Below, one piece after another: positions 2-19,407 of a stretch of 20,362 nucleotides of DNA. The stretch spans positions 1 through 20,362 of the IMG/VR virus record IMGVR_UViG_3300042878_000213; one strand, written 5' to 3'. Position numbers and translations under genes: made by a program. Numbering within the stretch: the stretch's first letter is position 1; each line of letters begins with the position of its first letter. The notes under the pieces are model-generated. The model had not been told where the DNA came from. It ran no database searches and worked only from the letters and a program-made list of their open reading frames with translations. Source of the stretch: a virus.

Positions 2-1171
2 ATCATGGCTAGAATAAACACCTCTATAGAAACTGCAGGTGCGTTATACTATGATAGACCTGCAATCCAAAGAGCTGTAAAAGAATACAATACTGATTAT
101 CTTCCTTCTATATTTACTGGTATTGGTAAGTCTAAAGAAAACTTTTATCAGAACAAGAAAAACCATAGTAAATATCAAGCTTTAGTAGAATATTTTAGAA
201 TGGTTAAAGCATACCAAGCAGACTCTGGTAAAGTGGATGTTATGAGTTGGGCATACTTTTTACAAGAAGGTGGTGAATACAATGCTCAGTCTAAGTCAGG
301 TGTAGCTGTTATTATGACAAGACAGTTAACAAATAGTAAGACAGGAGAAACTCAATCTATTTATGATGCTTTTAATTTTAATCCAAATACTGGTGAGTTA
401 AGTCTCAAAGATGGTTATGAGCTTTCAGAAAAAGAACGCTATGATACAATTAACTATATATTAGAAGTCAATAAACAGATACATGGTAACTATGCTTTTG
501 AAGATAGAATGGTTATTCAAGAACATTGGATTGGTCAGTTAGCAGCTCAGTTTCATAAATGGATATATCCTGCTTATAAGACTAGATTTAAAGGTAGATA
601 TATTGATGAAAATCTTGGTGAGGTAGAAGGAAGATACGCATCTGTACTTAGTTTAGTACAGTTTATTAGAGAATCAGAAGGATCTTTCCTAGAAAAGTTA
701 AGAGGTGGATGGGAAGGATTAGATGAAATCCAAGTAAAGAACATGTATAAGAACCTAGCTGAACTAGCTTTCTTTGCAGCAAGCTTTGCTATGTATGGTG
801 TATTTAGAGCATTATCTGATGGGGCAGATGACGATGATAAAACTTTAAAGCGTTGGTTAAACTTTATGGCTTACCAACAAAGTCGTCAAATGGCAGAACT
901 TAGTACTATGGTACCAATTGTTGGTACTAAAGAACAGTATCAAATTGCAAAAAGCCCAATAGCTATTCTTACCACTTTAAAAGATTTTGGTGAAGCTATT
1001 AAAGCTACTTTGAGTTTACCGTTCCCTCCATATGATAAAAATTATTATGAGCGTGGTACTAATGATGGAGAGTTAAAAGCTTGGAAAGAAATTAAAGATG
1101 TTATACCTGCTCTAAATGTTCTTAATAAGTGGGAGGCTTACGATCAAGTAAAAAGTTTCTACATAAAATAA
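2..1171 (+). CDS. C-terminal part of a large, probably virion-associated protein (partial)
   Basis: The reading frame is open to the left edge of the window, so this is read as a 3' fragment. An ATG at 5 is available but has no recognisable upstream signal. The visible 388 residues are polar and rich in Lys, Tyr and Glu, with one hydrophobic stretch around residues 254-270 (AFFAASFAMYGVF) followed by an acidic GADDDD patch. The end is rich in aromatic residues and prolines (LPFPPYDKNYYERG). The composition and position at the end of a rightward block resemble C-termini of the giant virion or ejected proteins (including RNA-polymerase polyproteins) of crAss-like and flavobacterial podoviruses. 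That comparison is from memory. No catalytic motif is visible here. It converges on the leftward unit, sharing the terminator hairpin region just after its stop. Confidence 0.55.
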   Translation: MMARINTSIETAGALYYDRPAIQRAVKEYNTDYLPSIFTGIGKSKENFYQNKKNHSKYQALVEYFRMVKAYQADSGKVDVMSWAYFLQEGGEYNAQSKSGVAVIMTRQLTNSKTGETQSIYDAFNFNPNTGELSLKDGYELSEKERYDTINYILEVNKQIHGNYAFEDRMVIQEHWIGQLAAQFHKWIYPAYKTRFKGRYIDENLGEVEGRYASVLSLVQFIRESEGSFLEKLRGGWEGLDEIQVKNMYKNLAELAFFAASFAMYGVFRALSDGADDDDKTLKRWLNFMAYQQSRQMAELSTMVPIVGTKEQYQIAKSPIAILTTLKDFGEAIKATLSLPFPPYDKNYYERGTNDGELKAWKEIKDVIPALNVLNKWEAYDQVKSFYIK

Positions 1172-8235: not shown

Positions 8236-8258
8236 GGGGGAGATAGTTAATCTCCCCC
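8236..8258 (-). terminator. GC-rich hairpin between DUF932 gene and 113-aa gene (attenuator or processing site)
   Basis: A 9-bp perfect stem (GGGGGAGAT 8236-8244, ATCTCCCCC 8250-8258) with a 5-base loop lies 7 bases after the DUF932 stop. The leftward transcript continues CATAATTAAATT, with no T-run, so this is probably not a classical terminator. It may stabilise the upstream mRNA 3' end or cause partial attenuation. Confidence 0.5.
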
Positions 8259-9097: not shown

Positions 9098-11038
9098 TTA
9101 AAATAGTGATAATTGTGTAGATGATAAACTTCTTTCTTTTTCTATCTGAGTGATCTCTTTATAGATCTGTTCTAAGTAGTAACTTTTGTTAATACTATAA
9201 GAGTCAAATGGAACCGTTTCGTTTATTTCGTTTATGGTGGTTTGTAACCATGGTCCAGACTCAACTTGTATAAGTCTACCGTCTGGATGACACTTAACTA
9301 GTTTCCCACCTTTGTTTGAAACATAGTATCTGACAATCTTTTGTTGTCTAATGGTGATAAGCTCACCGTTTTTCATTTCTTTATTCTCAAAGTACCAACC
9401 TCCTTTAGACTTGATACCTGCACAATAATCAAAGATGTTTTGATTACTTGCTAGAAAGTCTTCAGGCTTTATACCTTTTGTAAAGTAAGCATGGATAGCT
9501 TTAGGAATAACAAGAAAGCTTTTGTTCTTGTGGAACACTGCTACCTTCTTTTTGTCCAGGTCCTCCCATTCAAATGCACCTTTGCATTTTACTTTCCCGG
9601 ACTTAGAAACTGCTATGTAATTGTTTACATCTCTGATGATCATTTTAGAATACTCATCATGTTCTAACTCTAACTGGGTAGTTTTGCACCAGCGGTCACA
9701 AATTTCATGATACTTATCTATACAATAGGTAGGTAACAAGGTTTCAAAACCGTCAGTGTTTTGCATAAGAGGTACAGCTTCAGGTATTTCCTCACATATC
9801 ATCTCATAGAGCATAGATAATAGTAGCTGACCATTGATTGTAATTTGCATAGTCATCTTAGGATCGTACAGGAAGCTATTCTCGTCCCCTGTAAGACCGT
9901 AAGTACTATTTAGAATGATCTTATAAACATAGTTCTTAGGATCGCTCTTAGGGATCTTCTTACGCTCTTCAAAGAACCACTCATACAGTTCACAAAACTC
10001 CTCTTTAGGTAGGTGACTAGGATGGAACCCATTTCTAATAGCTAGATTAGGATAGAATGAAGTTACATCTGAGGTCATAATAGTGTACCCCTGCTTGGCC
10101 TCATAAACTCCTGCTGATCTGGCACCGTGAATACCGCCTAATCCATAGTCAGTTTTCATACCTTTGTAATCTAGAGTGTACTTAAACCCGTTCTTAGTGG
10201 ATATGATCACTTGTGTACGAAGATAGTCGTGCATCTTCTTAAACTCTTCAGTCTGAAACTTTACATAGGGCAGCATACACTGTCCTAAATAGATCTCACT
10301 ATGATAGGTTCTTAGAGTTTTGATATGGGATTTTTCCCAACCAAGCTTCTGAGATAGAAAATGCAAGAACAGTTCTTTAGATATTCTTGGCTCTGATGCA
10401 GAATAGAGATCTATCCCATAGTCATTGGTTAATGTTTGTCTCAACACTATCTGTTCCTTAGAATGTTCTAAGATCTTTTTAGTACTAAGTACATCGTTAA
10501 CACAATACTCTGTGATCATCTTAAGTTGCTCATCCGTTTCTACCGGGGCCATATGATGATGTGGCATCTCTTCTACATTCTGCCAGTCCATACTATACTG
10601 TATCCACTTTAGACTACTCATCTTAGCACGATTGTCCCAGTGGTTCATCTTGAATAGATCTATCTGCCTGATTTTAATTTTAGCAGGAGCGTATTCTAGA
10701 AAACTGTTTTGATCCTTAAGATTAATTGTCTTTTGTGCAAAAGCATAGATATCATTTATAACTGCTTCAGTACTAAGAGTTAGTAGCTGTCGTTGTTTAT
10801 CTAATATATGCTGACTTATCTGACCGTCAAAAGCTAAACCATTGTAGCTAATATGCCACTGATTTTTATTCTTACACTCATTCAGAAAGTCTATAAATTG
10901 TGGTAGGTCATTACGATCTTTGTATATGACAAAGGTCTTTCTGATTGTTTCATCTTTATAATGTTGAAACACAGCTATGAAACAATTTACCAGCGTCTCA
11001 TAATCCATAACCCAGTGGGCCGGCTTTTTTTCTTCCAT
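9098..11038 (-). CDS. Family B DNA polymerase with 3'-5' exonuclease
   Basis: The replicative polymerase, 646 aa, compact beside T4/RB69 gp43. Exonuclease motifs: Exo I D12-Y-E14, Exo II YN66GLAFD71, Exo III Y178-C-V-N-D182. A GGIHGA segment (301-306) precedes the polymerase domain. Motif A is SD324VTSFYP, motif B is K373-x3-N377-S-x-Y380-G, and motif C is QN427-T-D429-G. Motif C has Asn where most family B enzymes have the first Asp of DTD; the essential second Asp is kept. No N-terminal terminal-protein or primer domain is visible, and a primase is encoded nearby, so RNA-primed synthesis is expected. A terminator lies just upstream, with no clear promoter before the ATG. Confidence 0.93.
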   Translation of the reverse strand: MEEKKPAHWVMDYETLVNCFIAVFQHYKDETIRKTFVIYKDRNDLPQFIDFLNECKNKNQWHISYNGLAFDGQISQHILDKQRQLLTLSTEAVINDIYAFAQKTINLKDQNSFLEYAPAKIKIRQIDLFKMNHWDNRAKMSSLKWIQYSMDWQNVEEMPHHHMAPVETDEQLKMITEYCVNDVLSTKKILEHSKEQIVLRQTLTNDYGIDLYSASEPRISKELFLHFLSQKLGWEKSHIKTLRTYHSEIYLGQCMLPYVKFQTEEFKKMHDYLRTQVIISTKNGFKYTLDYKGMKTDYGLGGIHGARSAGVYEAKQGYTIMTSDVTSFYPNLAIRNGFHPSHLPKEEFCELYEWFFEERKKIPKSDPKNYVYKIILNSTYGLTGDENSFLYDPKMTMQITINGQLLLSMLYEMICEEIPEAVPLMQNTDGFETLLPTYCIDKYHEICDRWCKTTQLELEHDEYSKMIIRDVNNYIAVSKSGKVKCKGAFEWEDLDKKKVAVFHKNKSFLVIPKAIHAYFTKGIKPEDFLASNQNIFDYCAGIKSKGGWYFENKEMKNGELITIRQQKIVRYYVSNKGGKLVKCHPDGRLIQVESGPWLQTTINEINETVPFDSYSINKSYYLEQIYKEITQIEKERSLSSTQLSLF

Positions 11039-11079
11039 AGTATTTGGTTCAGTTAAGCTGTTCCCCCTTTTATGCCGCC

Positions 11080-11103
11080 AAAAAAAGGCAGAAGATCTGC
11101 CTT
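11080..11103 (-). terminator. Intrinsic terminator after the 134-aa gene
   Basis: An 8-bp perfect stem (AAGGCAGA 11085-11092, TCTGCCTT 11096-11103) with a 3-base loop is followed on the minus strand by a run of seven T (11086 down to 11080, including the foot of the stem). It lies 28 bases after the stop of the 11131-11535 gene and about 42 bases before the polymerase ATG, and should lower leftward transcription into the polymerase. Confidence 0.85.
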
Positions 11104-11130
11104 AATTGGTTTAATAGGACAAAATTAATA

Positions 11131-11535
11131 CTATACAGTTATAATACTCGACTGTTTTGGTGTTTCTAATTTCTTATCTACATACTCTTTATAGTCAAAA
11201 CTGTCTGCGTTAACAGCAAACATATTAATGAAGTCTTTAATCTCATCAAGGTTCTCAACATAGTACTCATAGAAAGTTGCAAGCGTCTTTCTCTCTTCTT
11301 TGTAATCTTTACCGTTTGGTCTTTTACCAATCTTTAAGTGTAAAACATCACCATCATCAGATAGTTTAGGCATCATATGAAAAGATTCTTTCTTTTCTTT
11401 ACCGATAACTGCTAACACTTTACTTGAAACGTCAAAAATGCACTCATTGTACGGGCATTCAGGTGTAATTGGTATCAGCTTAAAGGTTTTATCATTACCC
11501 CAGCTACTGGTAACCAACATCATTGAATTTTTCAT
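11131..11535 (-). CDS. Hypothetical protein in an insulated transcription unit (134 aa)
   Basis: A 134-aa soluble protein beginning KNSMMLVTSSWGND. It has a predicted beta-rich N-terminal half with two cysteines (TPECPYNECIF), a basic centre (KIGKRPNGKDYKEERK) and an acidic helical C-terminus (ENLDEIKDFINMF). I do not recognise the family; no catalytic motif is visible. Its setting is distinctive: a TANNTTTG -7-type box 20 bases upstream of the ATG and a strong intrinsic terminator right after the stop (TAG) could make it a separately and highly expressed unit between the nuclease module and the polymerase. A nucleic-acid-binding or host-directed abundant protein would fit, as inference. Confidence 0.75.
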   Translation of the reverse strand: MKNSMMLVTSSWGNDKTFKLIPITPECPYNECIFDVSSKVLAVIGKEKKESFHMMPKLSDDGDVLHLKIGKRPNGKDYKEERKTLATFYEYYVENLDEIKDFINMFAVNADSFDYKEYVDKKLETPKQSSIITV

Positions 11536-11554
11536 GTTTTTTTTATTATTTATA

Positions 11555-11586
11555 CAAATTTAAGTACCTTTTTTCAATAATTCCAA
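11555..11586 (-). promoter_or_regulatory. Possible Bacteroidota-type promoter for the 134-aa gene
   Basis: On the minus strand TTG (11586-11584), 21 bases, then TAAATTTG (11562-11555), which fits TTG-N17-23-TANNTTTG. The predicted transcript would start about 10-15 bases before ATG 11535. The -7 box matches fully; the -33 element is only three bases, so chance is possible in AT-rich DNA. The terminator right after the gene supports it. Confidence 0.45.
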
Positions 11587-12120
11587 CTCTTCTACGGGAA
11601 TTTTTAAGTTTTCTCTATTCATATCACAAGCATCACACAGTTCACCTGTCTTTTCTAGTATACTTACCTCTATATCTAGAAGTTTTGCATAGATACTAAA
11701 ATACTTTTCAGGAAACAAAAATGTTTCTATGTATTTATACTCACTTGATCTGTCACCATAGTAGTTTTTAATAGCTCTCTTTAATACATTAGATAATTTA
11801 GAGTACTTGCCTAATATAAAGTTGAACCAATCATCTTTATATATCTGAAAATCAAACACATATAACTTATATCCTTGTATAGGTATAACTTCTAGAAACA
11901 AAGGATTAGTTAATAGCATATGCTCTTCAAAGGCCTTGAAGCCTTCAGACTTATCGTCTACAAAACTACAAACTAGCTTCATATCCTCTGGACTTATCAC
12001 TCCTTCTATAGAGAGATAAGTACCAGAGGGTATAAAGTTGCTAGTACGCTTTATACCCAAAGCAGGAAACAGAAATGATCTGGATTTCTGGAAATATTTT
12101 GTGTATAAGCTGTCTATCAT
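11560..12120 (-). CDS. Conserved hypothetical phage protein (186 aa)
   Basis: A 186-aa soluble protein. The N-terminus (YTKYFQKSRSFLFPALGIKRT, about residues 6-26) resembles a recurrent sequence in hypothetical proteins of Bacteroidota phages, remembered but not searched. The middle is aromatic-rich (YKLYVFDFQIYKDDWFNFILGKYSKLS), and the end has a CDACDMN pair of cysteines (about 163-166) that could bind metal. No enzyme motif is visible. It lies between the PD-(D/E)XK nuclease (12-base gap) and the insulated 134-aa gene, so a role in replication or recombination is possible but not shown. Confidence 0.7.
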   Translation of the reverse strand: MIDSLYTKYFQKSRSFLFPALGIKRTSNFIPSGTYLSIEGVISPEDMKLVCSFVDDKSEGFKAFEEHMLLTNPLFLEVIPIQGYKLYVFDFQIYKDDWFNFILGKYSKLSNVLKRAIKNYYGDRSSEYKYIETFLFPEKYFSIYAKLLDIEVSILEKTGELCDACDMNRENLKIPVEELELLKKGT

Positions 12121-12132
12121 TTTAATTTTTAA

Positions 12133-13164
12133 TTACAAAACTACGGAACCTGTAGCAAAACTATGCGGTAAATCGTATCTTTTATTTACATAATGCCAAC
12201 TAGCTGCTTCTAAAACTTGTTCCATTCTTTCAAACCACCTTTTTAAGGTGCTTTCAGTTACTAAGAAAGGGTATGTTTGAAAAGCTCTATCTATAACTAC
12301 AAAGTGAAACTTCATTTCATATCCGTTGATTTCTATAAGTTCTTTATAAGTCTTAGCTACTAATGTACAATACATTACAGCTTGTAACCAATAAGAATAA
12401 AACTCTATAGTTTCTGGAAAGTCTTTTAGATCCTTACTTGTAGTTTTAATATCATTGATAAAGATAGTTTTTTTATCATGATTAATTACAACATTATCTA
12501 TAACACCTTTGATACCAAATGGTGCTTTAGAATGTTCTACACTTAAAAGAATCTCATTATGTACTTCTACATTATCAAACTCAGTTACATTACAACCAAT
12601 AAGACTACATAAGTCCTTATCTGTTTTAACTAATTCTACAGCATTCTTACAAAACTCATATGAGTCTTGATCTATAAGAGTTTTATTTCCTTTAGTTTTT
12701 AAGAACGACCAATAATTAATAGACTCTGGAGAAATAATTTTATCTAGACGTTGTTGATCTGTCTTGAGACTCTGATGATAGTTCATGTCTACCATTACAT
12801 CAAGAATAGCTTGATCAAAATGGTTTAACTCTGAACGTGTATCACCGTTTTGAGCTAGCTCTTGGTAGTGAGCAAACACTCTATCTATAACCACCTTAAC
12901 TGAATCACCTGGTAGTTTAGATGGGCTGATGATAAAATTATCATTAAACTTTTCTTCTTCTAAAAGAAGAGCATGTACAATCTTACCTTGTACTAAGTGA
13001 GCATCTGTACGCTCTTCTTTAATTCCCAGTATATACATTTGATAAAACACTGCGGGATTCCACATGAGCTTGTTAAGGCTACTATAACTAAAATAAAACT
13101 TTTTTAAGTAAAAGTCTTTCTCTAATGTTTCTGCAGATTCCTGCATGATTTCTTCTAACTCCAT
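12133..13164 (-). CDS. PD-(D/E)XK (RecB/Cas4-like) nuclease
   Basis: A 343-aa nuclease of the RecB-like PD-(D/E)XK superfamily. Motifs in order: YSSLNKLMWNP (about 27-37), the conserved His in GKIVHALLLEE (H64), GVID with D223, NDIKTT with D238 and K240, and Q261-A-V-M-Y265, the Qxxx[YF] motif of RecB/Cas4-type enzymes. Cysteines for a Cas4-style iron-sulphur cluster are not evident, so it is more like the phage exonucleases used in recombination or end resection. It sits between replication genes and likely pairs with the RecA-like ATPase and SSB for recombination-dependent replication; that pairing is inference. Confidence 0.85.
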   Translation of the reverse strand: MELEEIMQESAETLEKDFYLKKFYFSYSSLNKLMWNPAVFYQMYILGIKEERTDAHLVQGKIVHALLLEEEKFNDNFIISPSKLPGDSVKVVIDRVFAHYQELAQNGDTRSELNHFDQAILDVMVDMNYHQSLKTDQQRLDKIISPESINYWSFLKTKGNKTLIDQDSYEFCKNAVELVKTDKDLCSLIGCNVTEFDNVEVHNEILLSVEHSKAPFGIKGVIDNVVINHDKKTIFINDIKTTSKDLKDFPETIEFYSYWLQAVMYCTLVAKTYKELIEINGYEMKFHFVVIDRAFQTYPFLVTESTLKRWFERMEQVLEAASWHYVNKRYDLPHSFATGSVVL

Positions 13165-13170
13165 GTTGGT

Positions 13171-13563
13171 TTAATTTATTCTTTGTTCTAACTCTTGTTT
13201 CATGAGATCAAGTTTCCATTTTTCTATTCTATCTCCCATCTCTTTAATTACAGTTCCTAAATGTTCTGTATCCATTTCTGATACAGACATATACTTAATA
13301 GGTTCTGTACCATCTTTACCATAACTGCCCCATATAGGAGCTATTCTACATTTTTCAAATCCATCTGTTAGATAGATTGTTCCTGATAAGTCTACATGTT
13401 TAAGAACTTTACCACCATAACGCTGGTATTCAGTTCCTCCATCAAGCATAGTCTTATTATCACAACTACACATGACATAATCATGTCTGTGTCTTGATAT
13501 AAGTACTTCTCCACATAGTTTACATGTAGCAGTACTTAGTACGATTTGCTCTAGTCCGTTCAT
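13171..13563 (-). CDS. Zinc-binding phage protein, DUF7695-like
   Basis: A 130-aa protein with C14-x2-C17, SRHRHDYV (24-31), then C32-x-C34 and a DGG.EY.R.GG stretch. This arrangement matches a common small phage domain (pattern CK.CG..I.S.HRHD...C.CG...DGG..Y.R, likely DUF7695). The remainder is an acidic/basic tail (GDRIEKWKLDLMKQELEQR) with coiled-coil character. Function unknown. It lies 6 bases upstream of the nuclease gene. Confidence 0.7.
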   Translation of the reverse strand: MNGLEQIVLSTATCKLCGEVLISRHRHDYVMCSCDNKTMLDGGTEYQRYGGKVLKHVDLSGTIYLTDGFEKCRIAPIWGSYGKDGTEPIKYMSVSEMDTEHLGTVIKEMGDRIEKWKLDLMKQELEQRIN

Positions 13564-13575
13564 AATAGTTAGATT

Positions 13576-13782
13576 TTATCTACTAGGCCATAATCCTAGT
13601 TCTATTAATTTAGCACTCATCTTTTGTTGTGATCTTGTATCTACAGTGAGAGCTTCTTCATATTCAAGAAGAGCTACTAACTCTTTAATAAGATCATTAC
13701 AGTTGTTAAGTTCAGATTTCACTTGAGCCAGTTCAGCTCTACAGTCTTCTGATCTGAAAGTATCTTTATGTATATCTTCCAT
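13576..13782 (-). CDS. Small coiled-coil protein (68 aa)
   Basis: A 68-aa acidic protein that is mostly helical, with a heptad-like region (CRAELAQVKSELNNCNDLIKELVALLEY, about residues 14-41) and a short tail ending in LGLWPSR. No family is recognised. It starts 1 base after the stop of the 53-aa gene and ends 12 bases before the zinc protein, so its place in the operon is secure even though its role is unknown. Confidence 0.65.
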   Translation of the reverse strand: MEDIHKDTFRSEDCRAELAQVKSELNNCNDLIKELVALLEYEEALTVDTRSQQKMSAKLIELGLWPSR

Positions 13783-13783
13783 G

Positions 13784-13945
13784 TTATTTAAAGTTTTTTA
13801 ATTGTTCAGAAATTTCTTCTGGTAAATAGGCTAGCATGTTCTTCTTTGGTAAAAACTCTAGAAGTTCATAGATAGCAGTTTCATCTTGCATGGCAAGGTC
13901 TTCTTTTATCTGTTGTATAACAGCTTCAATTATAGGGTCTTCCAT
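13784..13945 (-). CDS. Small acidic conserved phage protein (53 aa)
   Basis: A 53-aa frame from ATG 13945 to TAA 13786-13784 that fills the gap between the HNH gene (1-base gap) and the 68-aa gene (1-base gap). The core DETAIYELLEFLPKKNMLAYLPEE (about residues 21-44) matches a recurrent phage micro-protein pattern (D.TA..ELL.F.P...L..YL.EE) seen in many unrelated phages. No function is known. The exact fit between neighbours and the recognisable pattern make it a good gene despite its size. Confidence 0.75.
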   Translation of the reverse strand: MEDPIIEAVIQQIKEDLAMQDETAIYELLEFLPKKNMLAYLPEEISEQLKNFK

Positions 13946-13946
13946 T

Positions 13947-14336
13947 TTACTTTTGTTTTTCTAATTGTGTCTTTGTATTATGACAGGTCTCACACAGCAC
14001 TTGTAGGTTATCTTGTTCACAAAATAGTCTATCTACAAACCCTGCAAGATCTGCAGAACAGTTAAGACTACCTGCTCCAACTATATGGTCTACATTAATC
14101 TCTTTATCTGGAAACCATTTTTTACAAGTATTACATTGGTATTCAAACTTTTGTCTTCTGTTGACACCTTTATAAGGTCTACGAGCTTTTAGTTTGCACT
14201 CTGTAATAGGTTTCCACCACCTTGATTTTTGACGTAATGCACTTCTTATGAAAGTCCAAAATGCGGACTCACTCATAGTACCTGCATTCCTAGTTTTAGG
14301 AGCTGCAGTACGTCTAACTGTTTTCTTCTTGGTCAT
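13947..14336 (-). CDS. HNH endonuclease
   Basis: A 129-aa protein with a basic N-terminus (MTKKKTVRRTAAPKTR) and a zinc-supported HNH fold: C68-x2-C71, D83-H84 (NVDHI), N110 and C115-x2-C118-H119 (LCETCHN). The form ARRPYKG...YQCN.CKKW...VDHI is typical of a set of HNH proteins common in Bacteroidota phages, usually inside replication operons rather than acting as a free homing nuclease. It may act in DNA processing or packaging; there is no evidence it is mobile here. Its start overlaps the primase 3' end by 23 bases. Confidence 0.88.
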   Translation of the reverse strand: MTKKKTVRRTAAPKTRNAGTMSESAFWTFIRSALRQKSRWWKPITECKLKARRPYKGVNRRQKFEYQCNTCKKWFPDKEINVDHIVGAGSLNCSADLAGFVDRLFCEQDNLQVLCETCHNTKTQLEKQK

Positions 14337-15318
14337 TTATAATTTTTTTATTAAGTATAGGTATTAACCTTACATATACTTCTTTAGGACCGTAATCCTT
14401 AATTGAATCAGATGGATCTTTACTCATTGGTAAAACAGCATACTCTACTTCAGGATACAATTCTTTATATCTTTCCATAGCTTTAATGCCGGGTTCATCA
14501 AAGTCAAAAAGTATAATTACTTTCTTATACTTCTTTAAGTATTGATCCATAAGTTCTTTACGTATGATAGTGTTCTCTGAGTCTGGTGCTATGATATCCA
14601 GTGTGGGTATCTTAAGACTTTTTAAAGACATTACATCTTTTAGAGAAGACGTTATAATTAGATAAGGTGCAGCTTTAACTTGTTCAGATCCTTGAACATA
14701 GTCATCTACTTTTATAAATTTTTTATCTAACGTTTTAGGCTGATAGATTTTGTACAGTGTACCATCTGATTTAAAGTAACCATATAGATAGTTACCTTTA
14801 ATGGTTAGATCAATGGGTCCCTCATCACAATCCTTATGCATAGTGTAATACTCTAAAGGTCTTACATTATATTCATCTAGAAGACGTGATCCAATATTGA
14901 ACTGAGTCCAGAAATATTGGTCTTGAGTGGTCCAGGATCTGAAAACAAACTGACTAACTTTATATTTAGAAGCTTGTTTAAATTTTTGTACATCGTACCC
15001 CCCGTTATTGTGGAGTACAAAATCATTATAATTCTCTACTACAAGAGTACAAGTTTTATGATAATTTAACCCAGTGATTTCTTTTACTAGATCTATTGCA
15101 GATCCACCGTGACCAGATGAAAAATCTTTATACTTGTATGTATCTTTTGTAGGTTCATAGTAAATACACATACTAGGTGTACGTTCCTTAGAATTAAAAA
15201 GACTTTTAATCTTTACATCATGCCCAGCAAGCTTTTCTTTCAGCTTACAAAAGTGTTCAAATATCCATGATACAGGAACATCCTTGATGTCGTGTACCAT
15301 ATTTTTTATCTTAAACAT
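14314..15318 (-). CDS. Toprim-type DNA primase (DnaG-like), degenerate zinc motif
   Basis: A 334-aa primase-like protein. The N-terminal SLFNSKERTPSM (39-50) followed by YKYKDFSSGHGGSAIDLV lines up with the CHC2 zinc-finger region of DnaG but lacks the zinc cysteines. The Toprim domain follows: LIITSSLKDVMSL (220-232), the acidic DFD at 272-274 and KDPSD at 300-304. Where DnaG has the Toprim Glu, this protein has Ser (T223-S224-S225). An upstream in-frame TTG (15372) would place a perfect terminator inside the gene, so ATG 15318 (or ATG 15300) is the real start. It would make primers for the helicase/polymerase set. The stop is TAG; the 3' end overlaps the HNH gene. Confidence 0.85.
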   Translation of the reverse strand: MFKIKNMVHDIKDVPVSWIFEHFCKLKEKLAGHDVKIKSLFNSKERTPSMCIYYEPTKDTYKYKDFSSGHGGSAIDLVKEITGLNYHKTCTLVVENYNDFVLHNNGGYDVQKFKQASKYKVSQFVFRSWTTQDQYFWTQFNIGSRLLDEYNVRPLEYYTMHKDCDEGPIDLTIKGNYLYGYFKSDGTLYKIYQPKTLDKKFIKVDDYVQGSEQVKAAPYLIITSSLKDVMSLKSLKIPTLDIIAPDSENTIIRKELMDQYLKKYKKVIILFDFDEPGIKAMERYKELYPEVEYAVLPMSKDPSDSIKDYGPKEVYVRLIPILNKKIINDQEENS

Positions 15319-15335
15319 GGGCTTGTGATTAAACG

Positions 15336-15363
15336 AAAAAAGGGGGAGTGATATTACTCCCCC
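15336..15363 (-). terminator. Intrinsic terminator between putative SSB and primase genes
   Basis: An 8-bp perfect stem (GGGGGAGT 15342-15349, ACTCCCCC 15356-15363) with a 6-base loop is followed on the minus strand by six T (15341 to 15336). It lies 17 bases past the putative SSB stop and only about 18 bases before the primase ATG, so primase expression must depend on read-through. Confidence 0.85.
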
Positions 15364-15380
15364 AGTCTTCAAGCAGGAAA

Positions 15381-15992
15381 TTACATATCAAAATCACTAT
15401 TAGCTGGCTCAAAGCTAGCTACAGACTTATTTTGTAAAGCCTTATAGTGGTATTGGTTGTTCTTATCAAACTTATCAAGCTTAGCTTCATCTGCTGAAAC
15501 AAACTTATACTTAGGTAGAGATAACTTAATGATAGTTTTACCATTGTATTCTTCTTCTGTACCTTTTAAGAACCAATATAAATTCTGTCCTTTAAGCATA
15601 GTCATTGCTTTTTCAACCCACTCTTCTAAATTAGATGCAGAAATATTATCAATCTGATCTCTAAGACCAAGCTCAGATGCAATAACTGCAATCTTAAACA
15701 TAATCTCATTCTTAGTTACGTTGGTTTCATTGAACTGATCTGTCCAGATAGTTGCAGATACACGACTTGATTGTCCTGTAAACTTTGGACCTTCTAGATC
15801 ATTCTTATCAATTGCCCAACCTTCAAAACCTTCAGATGCTGGCCCTTCTAGGATCAACTCTAAAGTTTTCTTATCACCTTTGTTGGATGTTCTGATCTGC
15901 CCACTATAAATGTGTGCATAAACTACTCCTGTTTGTAGAGACTTAGCTGTCCCTCCTGTTGTTTTGACTTCTTGTCCTTTTGTACTAAACAT
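15381..15992 (-). CDS. Putative single-stranded DNA-binding protein
   Basis: A 203-aa protein that is beta-rich in its first part (GVVYAHIYSGQIRTSNKGDKK..LELILEG), with later strands (NLYWFLKGTEEEYNGKTIIKLSLPKYKF, about residues 138-165). It ends in an acidic-hydrophobic tip, NSDFDM, like the C-terminal tails through which SSBs bind partner proteins. It has no catalytic motif. It lies between the RecA-like ATPase and primase, and a strong terminator just after it would favour higher expression of this gene than of downstream genes, as expected for an SSB. The assignment comes from these features and context, not a clear OB-fold signature. Confidence 0.6.
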   Translation of the reverse strand: MFSTKGQEVKTTGGTAKSLQTGVVYAHIYSGQIRTSNKGDKKTLELILEGPASEGFEGWAIDKNDLEGPKFTGQSSRVSATIWTDQFNETNVTKNEIMFKIAVIASELGLRDQIDNISASNLEEWVEKAMTMLKGQNLYWFLKGTEEEYNGKTIIKLSLPKYKFVSADEAKLDKFDKNNQYHYKALQNKSVASFEPANSDFDM

Positions 15993-16032
15993 GTTCTGTT
16001 GATTTAAACTTATTGTGAATTAAAAATGAATA

Positions 16033-16716
16033 CTAGTTCTCGTAATCTATGATAGCTTTTCTGACTAAACTCATGTCGTTATCTATCTCAAAGTCAGTAA
16101 ACATACCTCTGGGAGATTTACATGTGTTCTCACCATTGTTAGACGTCTCAAATACATATCTGATATTACCGTCTTTGTCTTTCTTAACTTTGCCAAACAA
16201 AACTATAGAAAATAATCCTTCTAAAGTAAGTTTTTCGTCAACCATTTTACCAATAGTTTTAGCTTTAAACTTCTTTTTACCTTCCATATCTGTAGATTCT
16301 TCAGCATGGGTTAGGATAAAAATTAATAGATCTTCCCTTAAATCCTTTGGCATACGTGCAATACGGGCAAGTTTGGCACCAATTTGTGTAAACTTTTCGT
16401 AACCTTTCTCGTCACTTCTGTCAAAGAACTCAAATGAGCTCATATACTGAAAGTCATCAACAACTAAGTTCTTGATGTCCTTACGTTTTTCTGAAACATA
16501 CTTCATGCATGCTTCTATTTGTTCTGATGAACTAGCAGAATAAAGATTACCTGTTGGGTTATCTTTGCTCCACGGTACATACTTCTTTCTCCATCCTTTG
16601 AAAGGTAGAGCCTTGTTAGCTACGTTTATAATAAACGTCTCTGCTGGATCTAGGTTCTCAATAGCTGTTGATTTACCTGACCCAGACTCTGCAATGATTA
16701 AGATTCCTTGTGCCAT
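16033..16716 (-). CDS. RecA-like P-loop ATPase, Sak4/AAA_24 type
   Basis: A 227-aa cytoplasmic ATPase. Walker A is A9-E-S-G-S-G-K15-S-T17 at the very N-terminus; Walker B is NLVVDDFQYM (about residues 83-92); a THAEES sensor-like strand follows (about 136-141). The small size, N-terminal P-loop and VVDDFQYM form match the phage Sak4-type (AAA_24) group, RecA-related proteins that act with SSB in single-strand annealing recombination. It lies 40 bases upstream of the putative SSB gene and 3 bases downstream of an unknown protein. With the PD-(D/E)XK nuclease it could provide a recombination pathway. The stop is TAG. Confidence 0.82.
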   Translation of the reverse strand: MAQGILIIAESGSGKSTAIENLDPAETFIINVANKALPFKGWRKKYVPWSKDNPTGNLYSASSSEQIEACMKYVSEKRKDIKNLVVDDFQYMSSFEFFDRSDEKGYEKFTQIGAKLARIARMPKDLREDLLIFILTHAEESTDMEGKKKFKAKTIGKMVDEKLTLEGLFSIVLFGKVKKDKDGNIRYVFETSNNGENTCKSPRGMFTDFEIDNDMSLVRKAIIDYEN

Positions 16717-16719
16717 ATG

Positions 16720-17298
16720 TTATTTTGTAGTTTTAATTAATTCATTCAACCATATTTTAGAACTCACTGGTTTACCTGTTTGGATAGCATAGTAATCTCT
16801 AATAGTCATGTCACTGTAAGGTGCGTCTTCCATTGTAGCAGGAGCTTTGTAAGCTTGCATAGGTGTCTTAGGTAAAGAGGAAGGTAATGCTTCAGTATCA
16901 ATACCAAACATTCCTGTCTTTTTAATAGCCACTGAGCTAGGATTTACTACTCTTAGTTCTTCAAGGGGAACAAGATAAGAACCTTTTTCATTAAGTTCAT
17001 ACTCTTCTTCATAAGATCCGCTTACAGGAACTCTGTAAACTTTACGATCTGCATCTGCAGGGCTTAAGTCTCTAGTAATTAGTTCAAAGAAAAAACCTTT
17101 GTCTTTTCTAAACTCTGAAGAGAAAATGCCTACTACCATTCTACCATGTTTGTCATAGAATGGCATTTTCATGTTAAAGTCAACTCTTGAAATCTGTAGA
17201 TCATCAATTAGATCTTGATGATAATCTCTAATAGACTCAAGCTTTAGTCTTTTTAATTCTTTAACGTCCGTTGTTTGTGGGGTGTTGATACTTGTCAT
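16720..17298 (-). CDS. Conserved hypothetical protein between helicase and RecA-like ATPase
   Basis: A 192-aa soluble protein. The N-terminus is helical and charged (DVKELKRLKLESIRDYHQDLIDDL); a beta-rich middle (RMVVGIFSSEFRKDKGFFFELITRD, about 53-77; VYRVPVSGSYEEEYELNEKGSYLVPLEEL) follows; then a Pro/Ala-rich linker (SSLPKTPMQAYKAPATM) and a short helical tail. No family is recognised. The gene is 3 bases from the Sak4-type ATPase and 15 from the helicase, so a role as an accessory factor of helicase loading or recombination is a reasonable guess. Confidence 0.75.
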   Translation of the reverse strand: MTSINTPQTTDVKELKRLKLESIRDYHQDLIDDLQISRVDFNMKMPFYDKHGRMVVGIFSSEFRKDKGFFFELITRDLSPADADRKVYRVPVSGSYEEEYELNEKGSYLVPLEELRVVNPSSVAIKKTGMFGIDTEALPSSLPKTPMQAYKAPATMEDAPYSDMTIRDYYAIQTGKPVSSKIWLNELIKTTK

Positions 17299-17313: not shown

Positions 17314-18369
17314 TTATAATTCCTGGCCAACATCAGCCGAAGGTGCTTGTCTGTTTGTTCTTGGTCCTCTTGGAGTCCACGTTTGTGGTTGCTGCTGTAA
17401 AGTTGGAGGAGCAGCTGACTCAATCATTCTTTGTCTTTTAAAATCAGTTTGTAAGAAAATAATATTCTCATCTGTAGCTCCGTTACGTAGTTTTAATAGA
17501 TGAAGAAATACGTTCTCTTTACTAGCTTGATAGTGTTCTGGCCCATAGTCTTCTATGTTTAGTGTAAACGGTCTACTTATTGCAAAGACCAAGTCTGAAC
17601 CCTGCATAAGAGCATCACCACCAAATATATCTGATGAGCTAGGATAGTTAGCAATTGTACCTGGAGTTCTGCGTGATACATCTTCCATGGTACGATTAAG
17701 TTGTGTAAGGATAATTACAATTACAGGTAGGTCTCTTTTTACATCAATCAGCATATCTGCTATGTTGTATAGAGTCTGTAATTTCTCTCTTTCATCTGCT
17801 GCTTTTTTTACCAACCAGCTATGGTCAATAGTGACAATCATTGGTTTACCGCCCAGTTCATTAAAGTAATGATGGATAGCTTTTTTTATGTCAACAGAAG
17901 TGAGTGGCTTTTTAATACGTACTCTTTGAACACCAAGTTTTTCTAGTTCTTCTGATTCCTTTAGATACTTTTCCATTTGCTCGTAAGCAAAGTCATCAAG
18001 TTCTTTTTTAGATGAGAGCACTACGTTATAATCCATAGCAACCTGTGCCGCAAATTCTCTTGCAGCATAGGATTCATCACCCATCTCAAACTGAAACTCT
18101 AATATGGAAAAATCTTGGTCAGGATTGAGTCTTTTAGACTCTCTAAGAATGTGACTAATAAACATAGTCTTACCTGCAGCAGGACGAGCACCAATTGTAA
18201 CTAGGCTCCCCCATTCTATACCACCAATAGTAGCACTGTTAATAGCATCCCACGGTGTTCTTAAGGACTTAATACGTCCTTTACGTCTATCGTTAATATA
18301 CTTTAGACCTATTCGTAAACCTTCAGCATGCGTAATAGCACCATAAGGTCTGTCTATTTTTTGATCCAT
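17314..18369 (-). CDS. DnaB-type replicative helicase
   Basis: A 351-aa superfamily-4 helicase core that unwinds DNA ahead of the polymerase. Walker A is G60-A-R-P-A-A-G-K67-T68; the catalytic Glu is E95 in EFQFEM; Walker B is IVTIDH at 178-183; motif H3 is TQLNR at 222-226; H4 is FGGDALMQGSDLVFAISRP; an LKLRNG segment contains the probable arginine finger. The usual N-terminal domain of DnaB (about 150 residues) is nearly absent. The end is Pro/Gln-rich (PPTLQQQPQTWTPRGPR), perhaps an unstructured partner-binding tail. It begins the conserved replication block; the next gene starts 15 bases after its stop. Confidence 0.92.
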   Translation of the reverse strand: MDQKIDRPYGAITHAEGLRIGLKYINDRRKGRIKSLRTPWDAINSATIGGIEWGSLVTIGARPAAGKTMFISHILRESKRLNPDQDFSILEFQFEMGDESYAAREFAAQVAMDYNVVLSSKKELDDFAYEQMEKYLKESEELEKLGVQRVRIKKPLTSVDIKKAIHHYFNELGGKPMIVTIDHSWLVKKAADEREKLQTLYNIADMLIDVKRDLPVIVIILTQLNRTMEDVSRRTPGTIANYPSSSDIFGGDALMQGSDLVFAISRPFTLNIEDYGPEHYQASKENVFLHLLKLRNGATDENIIFLQTDFKRQRMIESAAPPTLQQQPQTWTPRGPRTNRQAPSADVGQEL

Positions 18370-18381
18370 AAAAGATTTTTA

Positions 18382-18606
18382 TTATAAACTTGGAAATGAT
18401 TTACTAAAAACCTCTTTAATAATGTCATTAGCCTTTGTATAAGACTCAATGCCTGCTGTTAAATAAGCTTTTCTTGTAGCGTCATCTACAATACCTTTTA
18501 GTACTTCAAAGTTTATAATACGTAGACTGGATCTTGAATCATCTACGGTAGGAAGAGACTCAAATATCTTTCTAAGCTCTTCATAATTGTTGGGTGTGTT
18601 AACCAT
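18382..18606 (-). CDS. Small hypothetical protein behind a host-type promoter (74 aa)
   Basis: A 74-aa soluble, helical protein (NNYEELRKIFESLPTV...INFEVLKGIVDDATRKAYLTAGIESYTKANDIIKEVFSK). No family is recognised. Its ATG lies about 16 bases from the predicted start point of the best promoter in the window, so it would be the first gene of that transcript and expressed from infection onset by host polymerase, as inferred. It ends 12 bases before the helicase start; a small helicase partner or regulator is possible. Confidence 0.7.
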   Translation of the reverse strand: MVNTPNNYEELRKIFESLPTVDDSRSSLRIINFEVLKGIVDDATRKAYLTAGIESYTKANDIIKEVFSKSFPSL

Positions 18607-18628
18607 GTTGGATTGTTTTATTGTAAGT

Positions 18629-18659
18629 CAAAAATATGATAAGTTAGGGGAAAAACAAA
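18629..18659 (-). promoter_or_regulatory. Bacteroidota primary-sigma promoter (-33/-7)
   Basis: On the minus strand TTTG (18659-18656), a 19-base spacer, then TATTTTTG (18636-18629). This matches the Bacteroidota housekeeping promoter TTTG-N19-21-TANNTTTG exactly in both boxes. Transcription would start near 18622, giving a leader of about 16 bases before ATG 18606. It is in the only sizeable gap (59 bases) near the start of the leftward unit, just upstream of the helicase module, and does not overlap a coding region. Confidence 0.7.
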
Positions 18660-18665
18660 ATTTTT

Positions 18666-19274
18666 CTAAGCTTTTTCTTGAAACCACTTAATATTTTGTT
18701 TTTTATAATGTTCTAAAGCAGGTTCTAGAATCTCTGGGCTATCTAGTAAAAGATCGCAATAGTTTGCTAGTTCAGAAGTACCAAACTTTTCTATAAAATA
18801 GCCACTATTTTTCATAAAATCAAACTTTACCTTCTCTTTTTCAAAGATGTAATACTCTGTAGCTATATGAACTAATGACCAATCATACTCAGGGTATGTT
18901 TTAAAGAACTCTATGAACTTTTTCTTTAGCTGTTCTACTGTTTGCTTAGATACTGCACCTGATGGTAATGTTCCTCTAGGAAATAACTCCCTATAATACT
19001 TGATTTTTTCTAGGAATCCATCTCCTAATACTTCTGTAGCTACTTTCTTTTTAGTCTTGACTAGGAAGGTTTCAAATCCATCTAAAATTACTAATGCTTT
19101 TTCTGTTAGTTGTCCTTGTTCATTAATATATCCCTTAGCTCTGCAAATGTTAGCCTCAGCATCTGGATTGATAATGTTAGTTGGCTTAATTCTACTTCTA
19201 CAGCAGTCTAGGAAATAAATCTGATTAGGGCTAACACTATACTTAATAAGTGTGGTCCATAATTGGTGGCTCAT
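18666..19274 (-). CDS. Leader gene of the leftward unit, conserved hypothetical (202 aa)
   Basis: A 202-aa soluble protein, first on the leftward unit next to the divergent promoter region. The N-terminal half, LIKYSVSPNQIYFLDCCRSRIKPTNIINPDAEANICRAKGYI, then LTEKALVILDGFETFLVKTKKK, has the helix-helix-wing look of a winged-helix DNA-binding domain and resembles a protein I recall from several Bacteroidota phages at the same genomic place. The C-terminal half (YDWSLVHIATEYYIFEKEKVKFDFMKNSGYFIEKFG) is helical. A regulator or replication-initiation role is inferred; there is no proven function. The stop is TAG. Confidence 0.7.
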   Translation of the reverse strand: MSHQLWTTLIKYSVSPNQIYFLDCCRSRIKPTNIINPDAEANICRAKGYINEQGQLTEKALVILDGFETFLVKTKKKVATEVLGDGFLEKIKYYRELFPRGTLPSGAVSKQTVEQLKKKFIEFFKTYPEYDWSLVHIATEYYIFEKEKVKFDFMKNSGYFIEKFGTSELANYCDLLLDSPEILEPALEHYKKQNIKWFQEKA

Positions 19275-19407
19275 GATGATGGTTTATATGTTTAAGGATG
19301 TAAATTATATTATATGTGATGGTTTTCTAACAGATATTTTGTATATTATAATGTAGGGTTTATAGAAATCTTACACTTCTGATATTTATATATAAATTAA
19401 TTATACC
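19275..19407 (+). promoter_or_regulatory. Divergent AT-rich promoter region
   Basis: A 133-base gap between divergent units with no gene. It holds two copies of a TATAnTATAATnTA-like motif facing opposite ways: TATATTATAATGTA (19342-19355, plus) and TATAATATAATTTA (19314-19301, minus), 12 of 14 bases alike, each with a TATAAT core. A TATTTTG at 19335-19341 resembles a Bacteroidota -7 box but is one base short. No clear -35 element is visible, so a phage-specific or modified polymerase may use these. Confidence 0.4.

Follow-up and report, generated by a model that had tools for sequence, protein, structure and literature searches.

A conserved host-type promoter is predicted before the replication genes of a crAss-like phage

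Excerpts of a study of crAss001 place early RNA at 0–10 min and middle RNA, which covers the replication genes, at 10–30 min, and suggest the host polymerase as the reader of the middle and late genes (PMC8375218). A review, in its passages on this subject, has the virion RNA polymerase of crAss-like phages make early RNA as well as middle (replication) RNA, and describes phi14:2 transcription as virion-polymerase dependent (PMC10136315). On these passages the two papers disagree on the polymerase for crAss-like replication genes, the former suggesting the host enzyme and the latter naming the virion enzyme. A host-type promoter directly before the helicase gene makes this dispute testable, and the main interest of the element described here is its bearing on polymerase use in crAss-like phages. 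The titles and abstract starts of the open literature yielded no paper on phage promoters of this kind, which is a weak negative.

The consensus for the Bacteroidota housekeeping sigma factor, sigma-ABfr, is TTTG / TANNTTTG, refined to TAHHTTTG; in Flavobacterium johnsoniae the final G of the −7 box is nearly invariant, the distance from this box to the start is 4–5 nt, and genes have no Shine-Dalgarno (SD) sequence and an A at −3 (PMC6847099, in excerpt). In T4 middle promoters the MotA box lies 12 ± 1 bp from the −10 element (PMC2988021, in excerpt).

The window analysed here is a stretch of viral DNA of 20,362 nucleotides (IMG/VR record IMGVR_UViG_3300042878_000213). An initial annotation had proposed that a Bacteroidota-type promoter, TTTG-N19-TATTTTTG on the minus strand, lies in a 59-base gap before a 74-aa gene and the helicase gene. 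Direct reading confirms this layout: the gap (18607–18665), between the stop of a 202-aa gene and the ATG (18606) of the 74-aa gene, holds the element, hereafter P2, with TTTG at 18659–18656, the 19-base spacer at 18655–18637 and TATTTTTG at 18636–18629. The features around P2 are as follows.

18666..19274, minus strand: 202-aa gene upstream of P2, conserved in the lineage
18656..18659, minus strand: −33 element TTTG of P2, invariant in 21/21 distinct close sequences
18637..18655, minus strand: spacer of 19 bases, free to vary
18629..18636, minus strand: −7 element TATTTTTG (consensus TANNTTTG); T, A, T, T, T invariant, last position G in 17/21 distinct close sequences and A in 4/21
18623..18624, minus strand: predicted transcription start, 4–5 nt past the −7 element, from the F. 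johnsoniae spacing
18607..18624, minus strand: predicted leader of 17–18 nt, A-rich, with A at −3 and no Shine-Dalgarno sequence
18382..18606, minus strand: 74-aa gene, first behind P2, no family match; relatives have small ORFs at the equivalent place
17314..18369, minus strand: DnaB-like replicative helicase, 351 aa (phrog_19, 4.4e-30; DnaB_C, 3.6e-23)
9098..17298, minus strand: remaining replication block (192-aa gene, Sak4-like gene, 203-aa gene, primase, nuclease, DNA polymerase)
16033–16716, minus strand: Sak4-like gene of this block
14314–15372, minus strand: primase of this block
12133–13164, minus strand: PD-(D/E)XK nuclease of this block
11555..11562, minus strand: internal −7-like box TAAATTTG, overlapping the stop of a 186-aa gene, 19 nt before the ATG (11535) of a 134-aa gene
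9098–11038, minus strand: family B-type DNA polymerase of this block

The 202-aa protein has no match in PHROG or among named phages, and a weak Pfam match to PV_NSP1, below the cut-off, was ignored. The box TAAATTTG is a possible secondary internal promoter by its sequence; its counterpart in the relatives G001 and G002 is TAATTTTG, with TTTG at 21. Terminator-like hairpins number 25, compared with 8.0 in shuffled sequences, and strong ones within the replication block lie at 15342–15363 (minus strand), 11085–11103 and 8236–8258.

P2 resembles sigma-ABfr housekeeping promoters in both boxes, in the 19–20-base spacing, in the A/T-only free positions (TT in the window, so that the not-G rule of TAHHTTTG holds) and in its short, A-rich, SD-free leader, and in relatives the boxes are kept as a unit, although a share of them has A for the final G. 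It differs in being phage-borne and read from sequence alone, and in the terminal A of the −7 box in some relatives. The predicted start would fall at 18624 or 18623, close to the 18622 given by the initial annotation. On either strand of the window P2 is the only match to TTTG-N17-21-TATTTTTG and the only match to TTTG-N19/20-TANNTTTG. At least one match occurs in 8 of 100 shuffled windows for the exact form and in 21 of 100 for the consensus form (mean 0.22); the sequence by itself is thus weak evidence, and one match in the window could be chance. Because of its intergenic position and its conservation in relatives, P2 nevertheless lies far beyond chance. The idea that P2 is one of many strict sites across the genome was rejected, with 0–5 per record on both strands versus 0–4 in a backward control (14 records). 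Sigma-70 sites of the E. coli type show no excess in the window over shuffles (65 versus 78.3).

The conservation of P2 was followed through a helicase search of IMG/VR, which gave 80 loci; L035, L036 and L061, which start within the helicase gene, were left out of the table. The close set comprises 37 loci with a full helicase start, of which 34 reach the P2 site (L007, L023 and L031 stop short). All 34 have TTTG and TANNTTT 19–20 bases apart, which bears out, at the matching position in relatives, the element expected there by the initial annotation: 29 carry TTTG-N19/20-TANNTTTG, five (L028, L029 and L032–L034) end in TTTA, and none is without the pair; L002 and L003 do not differ from the window at P2. 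Among the 21 distinct close sequences, nine of the ten core columns are invariant and the tenth has 17 G and 4 A, compared with one invariant column of 21 in the spacer and the two free −7 positions (column test, p = 4.8e-6, a guide only, since the rows share ancestry). These two free positions are A or T in every distinct close sequence (21/21). From the −7 box to the ATG 11 of 22 columns are invariant, and the coding columns of the 74-aa gene vary more than the P2 core (10/34 invariant).

In distant clades (helicase identity 50–58%), a looser pattern, TTG-N19/20-TAHHTTT(A/G), framed after looking at the distant sequences, is present in 22 of 25 distinct segments compared with 51 of 11,158 control segments. 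All 22 end the −7 box in TTTA and none in TTTG; the segments without even this form are L041, L063 and L069/L070, and L040, L064 and L075 were too short for the comparison. In L039–L065 the pattern overlaps the end of a small upstream ORF, and part of its conservation may come from coding, while in the rows inspected from L066–L081 it is intergenic.

The phage is crAss-like. The best-covered named relatives of its helicase are crAss-like phages (cr4_1: 30.5% over 91%), and the order helicase-unknown-ATPase-unknown-primase matches cr4_1 gp37–gp33. In the relative G002 (127,624 bases), a 3031-aa ORF contains SDFDIDK, a DxDxD motif, and matches 6vr4_A (1.3e-19), an entry that we take to be the phi14:2 virion RNA polymerase structure. 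The mark of the Crassvirales, a giant virion RNA polymerase with DxDxD, is thus found in G002, and the window holds only the end of the neighbouring subunit:

5..1171, plus strand: C-terminal part of a virion RNA polymerase module protein (24% identity to phi14:2 g065, 4e-15; 25% to cr4_1 gp27, 3e-17)

Its phi14:2 counterpart, g065, is a polymerase-associated protein; by the likeness to g065 and gp27, a module for a virion polymerase and the replication block run toward each other. The terminase, portal and major head protein of G002, which lie outside the window, have family-level matches (phrog_6681, phrog_6547 and phrog_11589). No DNA-level relatives of the window were found among named phages, and no host genomes were found to carry the helicase.

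A Bacteroidota host, as initially proposed, is supported indirectly and from independent signs: the SD-free, A-rich starts, the Flavobacteriales relatives of the reductase and the crAss-like kinship. In G001–G003 only 3/96, 6/103 and 4/85 starts are SD-like, compared with 7.5–8.5% of internal ATGs, A stands at −3 of 0.48–0.55 of starts versus 0.33–0.34 at internal ATGs, and starts are also A-rich at −12/−13. The ribonucleotide reductase small subunit was found at 44 loci in genome contigs by a scan seeded on exact peptide words and so biased toward close relatives; 39 carry Flavobacteriales names, some of their genera being presumed by us to belong to that order, at ~44–48% identity. The other five (61–81% identity), from metagenome bins assigned to various phyla, seem to be phage contigs. 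One locus, L105 (WLWP01000004.1, 114,697 bases), binned as Pseudomonadales, has a phage-like reductase pair at ~79–82% identity and is probably a mis-binned crAss-like phage.

Full −33/−7 promoters work without a phage factor, and since both boxes are present P2 should need no phage activator. Host polymerase with its housekeeping sigma-ABfr would bind TTTG at −33 and TATTTTTG at −7 and begin transcription at ~18623–18624; the RNA would open with a short A-rich leader and run on through the 74-aa gene and the helicase into the replication genes colinear with them, in a 'middle' period when the phage DNA is inside and the host polymerase is still working. We assign a probability of roughly 0.82 to this reading, in which P2 is a real crAss-like phage promoter, read by host sigma-ABfr polymerase and driving the replication genes, more probably as a 'middle' promoter than in the first minutes. 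P2 has the appearance of a conserved, ordinary host-type promoter; use by the host polymerase is a sound inference from the consensus, and the sigma-ABfr enzyme would be its simplest reader. A search of five long relatives found a Sigma70_r2 protein in none of the five. The conservation of P2 suggests that the phage lets the host polymerase read its replication genes, though its relatives carry a polymerase of their own.

The Bacteroidota-type promoter proposed in front of the replication module is upheld by consensus, spacing and position kept in relatives. Its proposed early use is not: a relative encodes a virion RNA polymerase of the phi14:2 type, and the crAss001 study, in excerpt, classes the replication genes as 'middle' (PMC8375218). 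Use of P2 within the first minutes would be helped by a full promoter independent of phage factors and by a host polymerase that is there from the start, but the early set can use the available virion polymerase and the replication genes of crAss001 begin only after that set, and we consider such timing unlikely.

More doubtful still is that the virion RNA polymerase of the phage reads P2, using A+T-rich, host-like sequence with the host enzyme uninvolved. Relatives do encode a phi14:2-type virion polymerase, and the review passages give it both early and middle RNA (PMC10136315), but what is conserved, in both boxes and their spacing, coincides exactly with the host sigma consensus. Moreover, phi14:2, whose virion polymerase is a characterised one and which is like the window's lineage in its replication genes and in having a virion RNA polymerase of the same family (in the relative G002), is unlike the window in that no strict sense host-type promoter precedes its replication genes: 0/6 strict TTTG-N18-21-TAHHTTTG hits lie in sense in its replication arm (100,000 bases scanned). 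A functionless chance match in A+T-rich DNA, for which the matches in shuffled windows and several other strict matches inside genes of G001–G003 might speak, is already contradicted by boxes conserved around a free spacer in the 21 distinct close sequences and by the reappearance of the element at the equivalent site in distant relatives, and is highly improbable.

In crAss001 (Steigviridae), a strict TTTG-N20-TACCTTTG lies within the middle-gene block, 29 nt upstream of the Sak4 gene. Three Kehishuvirus records retain it, cr126_1 has it as TTTG-N20-TATCTTTG (5 of 33 matching records inspected), and cr106_1 has ATTG in place of TTTG. The crAss001 site overlaps the end of the helicase gene, an operon position other than that of P2, and coding constraint may explain it. 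In host-type sites the comparison is suggestive of a lineage that resembles crAss001 rather than phi14:2.

Relatives carry a second promoter candidate, P1, farther upstream. Its layout, CTACAnTATAATATAC (≤1 mismatch), 20–21 bases, TANNTTTG, 20–23 bases and ATG, is present in 34/34 distinct sequences (51 loci); CTACAnTATAATATAC occupies the position expected for the −33 box, and TTG 17–23 bases before the −7 box occurs in 0/34. As background, TANNTTTG lies 12–35 bases before 11/333 ORFs in G001–G003. An IMG/VR scan found the layout with N20-21 in 112 stretches and with N14-15 in none. Of the 80 stretches examined, 76 are followed by a DnaA-C-like ORF; the remaining four run into ORFs that begin in a similar way, three of them short and apparently cut at the stretch end, and one of the four, L181 (160 aa), is without the DnaA-C motif looked for. 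A gene for a DnaA C-terminal domain (Bac_DnaA_C, 3.3e-13) precedes the 202-aa gene in relatives outside the window's clade; in the window and nine further loci no DnaA-C-like gene was found up to 2.2 kb upstream. The window retains one part of P1:

19341..19356, minus strand: P1 phage block CTACATTATAATATAC; −7 box and DnaA-C-like gene absent

Without the P1 box, the stretch from the divergent region to the helicase holds no consensus promoter other than P2. The suggestion that replication genes are expressed from here and 'not only from the divergent region' is plausible: the divergent region of the window keeps the phage block, but a consensus −7 box is missing there in front of the 202-aa gene.

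P1 is like T4 middle promoters in pairing a phage-specific block with a host-type box and in being without a −33 box. Its block-to-box distance, however, is 20–21 bp rather than the 12 ± 1 bp of MotA, so that at most P1 'works like' a MotA middle promoter. Many P1 boxes, of the form TAGATTTG, break the not-G rule, which would fit an activator-dependent promoter. Tentatively, and with somewhat less than even confidence, P1 may form a lineage-specific 'middle' class in which a phage activator on CTACAnTATAATATAC (~−41) stands in for the −33 contact and brings host sigma-ABfr polymerase to TANNTTTG, with activator-free P2 as its backup; the DnaA-C-like gene would have been lost from the window's clade together with the P1 box, leaving the clade with P2 alone. 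If so, the replication genes would be driven by the host polymerase, against a virion polymerase making early and middle RNA, and the composite P1 would point to a phage activator.

Left of the P1 block, TGTAG forms an inverted repeat with CTACA in most relatives (L012:2180–2300 and equivalents; 19341–19375, minus strand, in the window). A second copy of CTACAnTATAATATAC lies in the structural arm (G002:27031–27046, G001:64403–64418, G003:49948–49963), and in most long records it shares the strand of the first copy, about half a genome away; in G002 it adjoins a terminator-like hairpin. The copies were considered as origin and terminus and rejected, the skew extremes of G002 lying at ~66.5 and 112.5 kb versus copies at 27.0 and 92.7 kb. 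A tie of the DnaA-C-like protein to DnaA boxes was likewise rejected, TTATCCACA showing no enrichment in G001–G003 or the window. Close to the GC-skew minimum, the other divergent region holds a palindromic TATATTATAATATA (G002:65355–65370 and equivalents), a possible origin or early promoter. TTTG-N19-TAGNTTTG recurs 20-odd bases before a 95-aa gene (G002:70470–70500, G001:109498–109528, G012:19653 and G013:35909).
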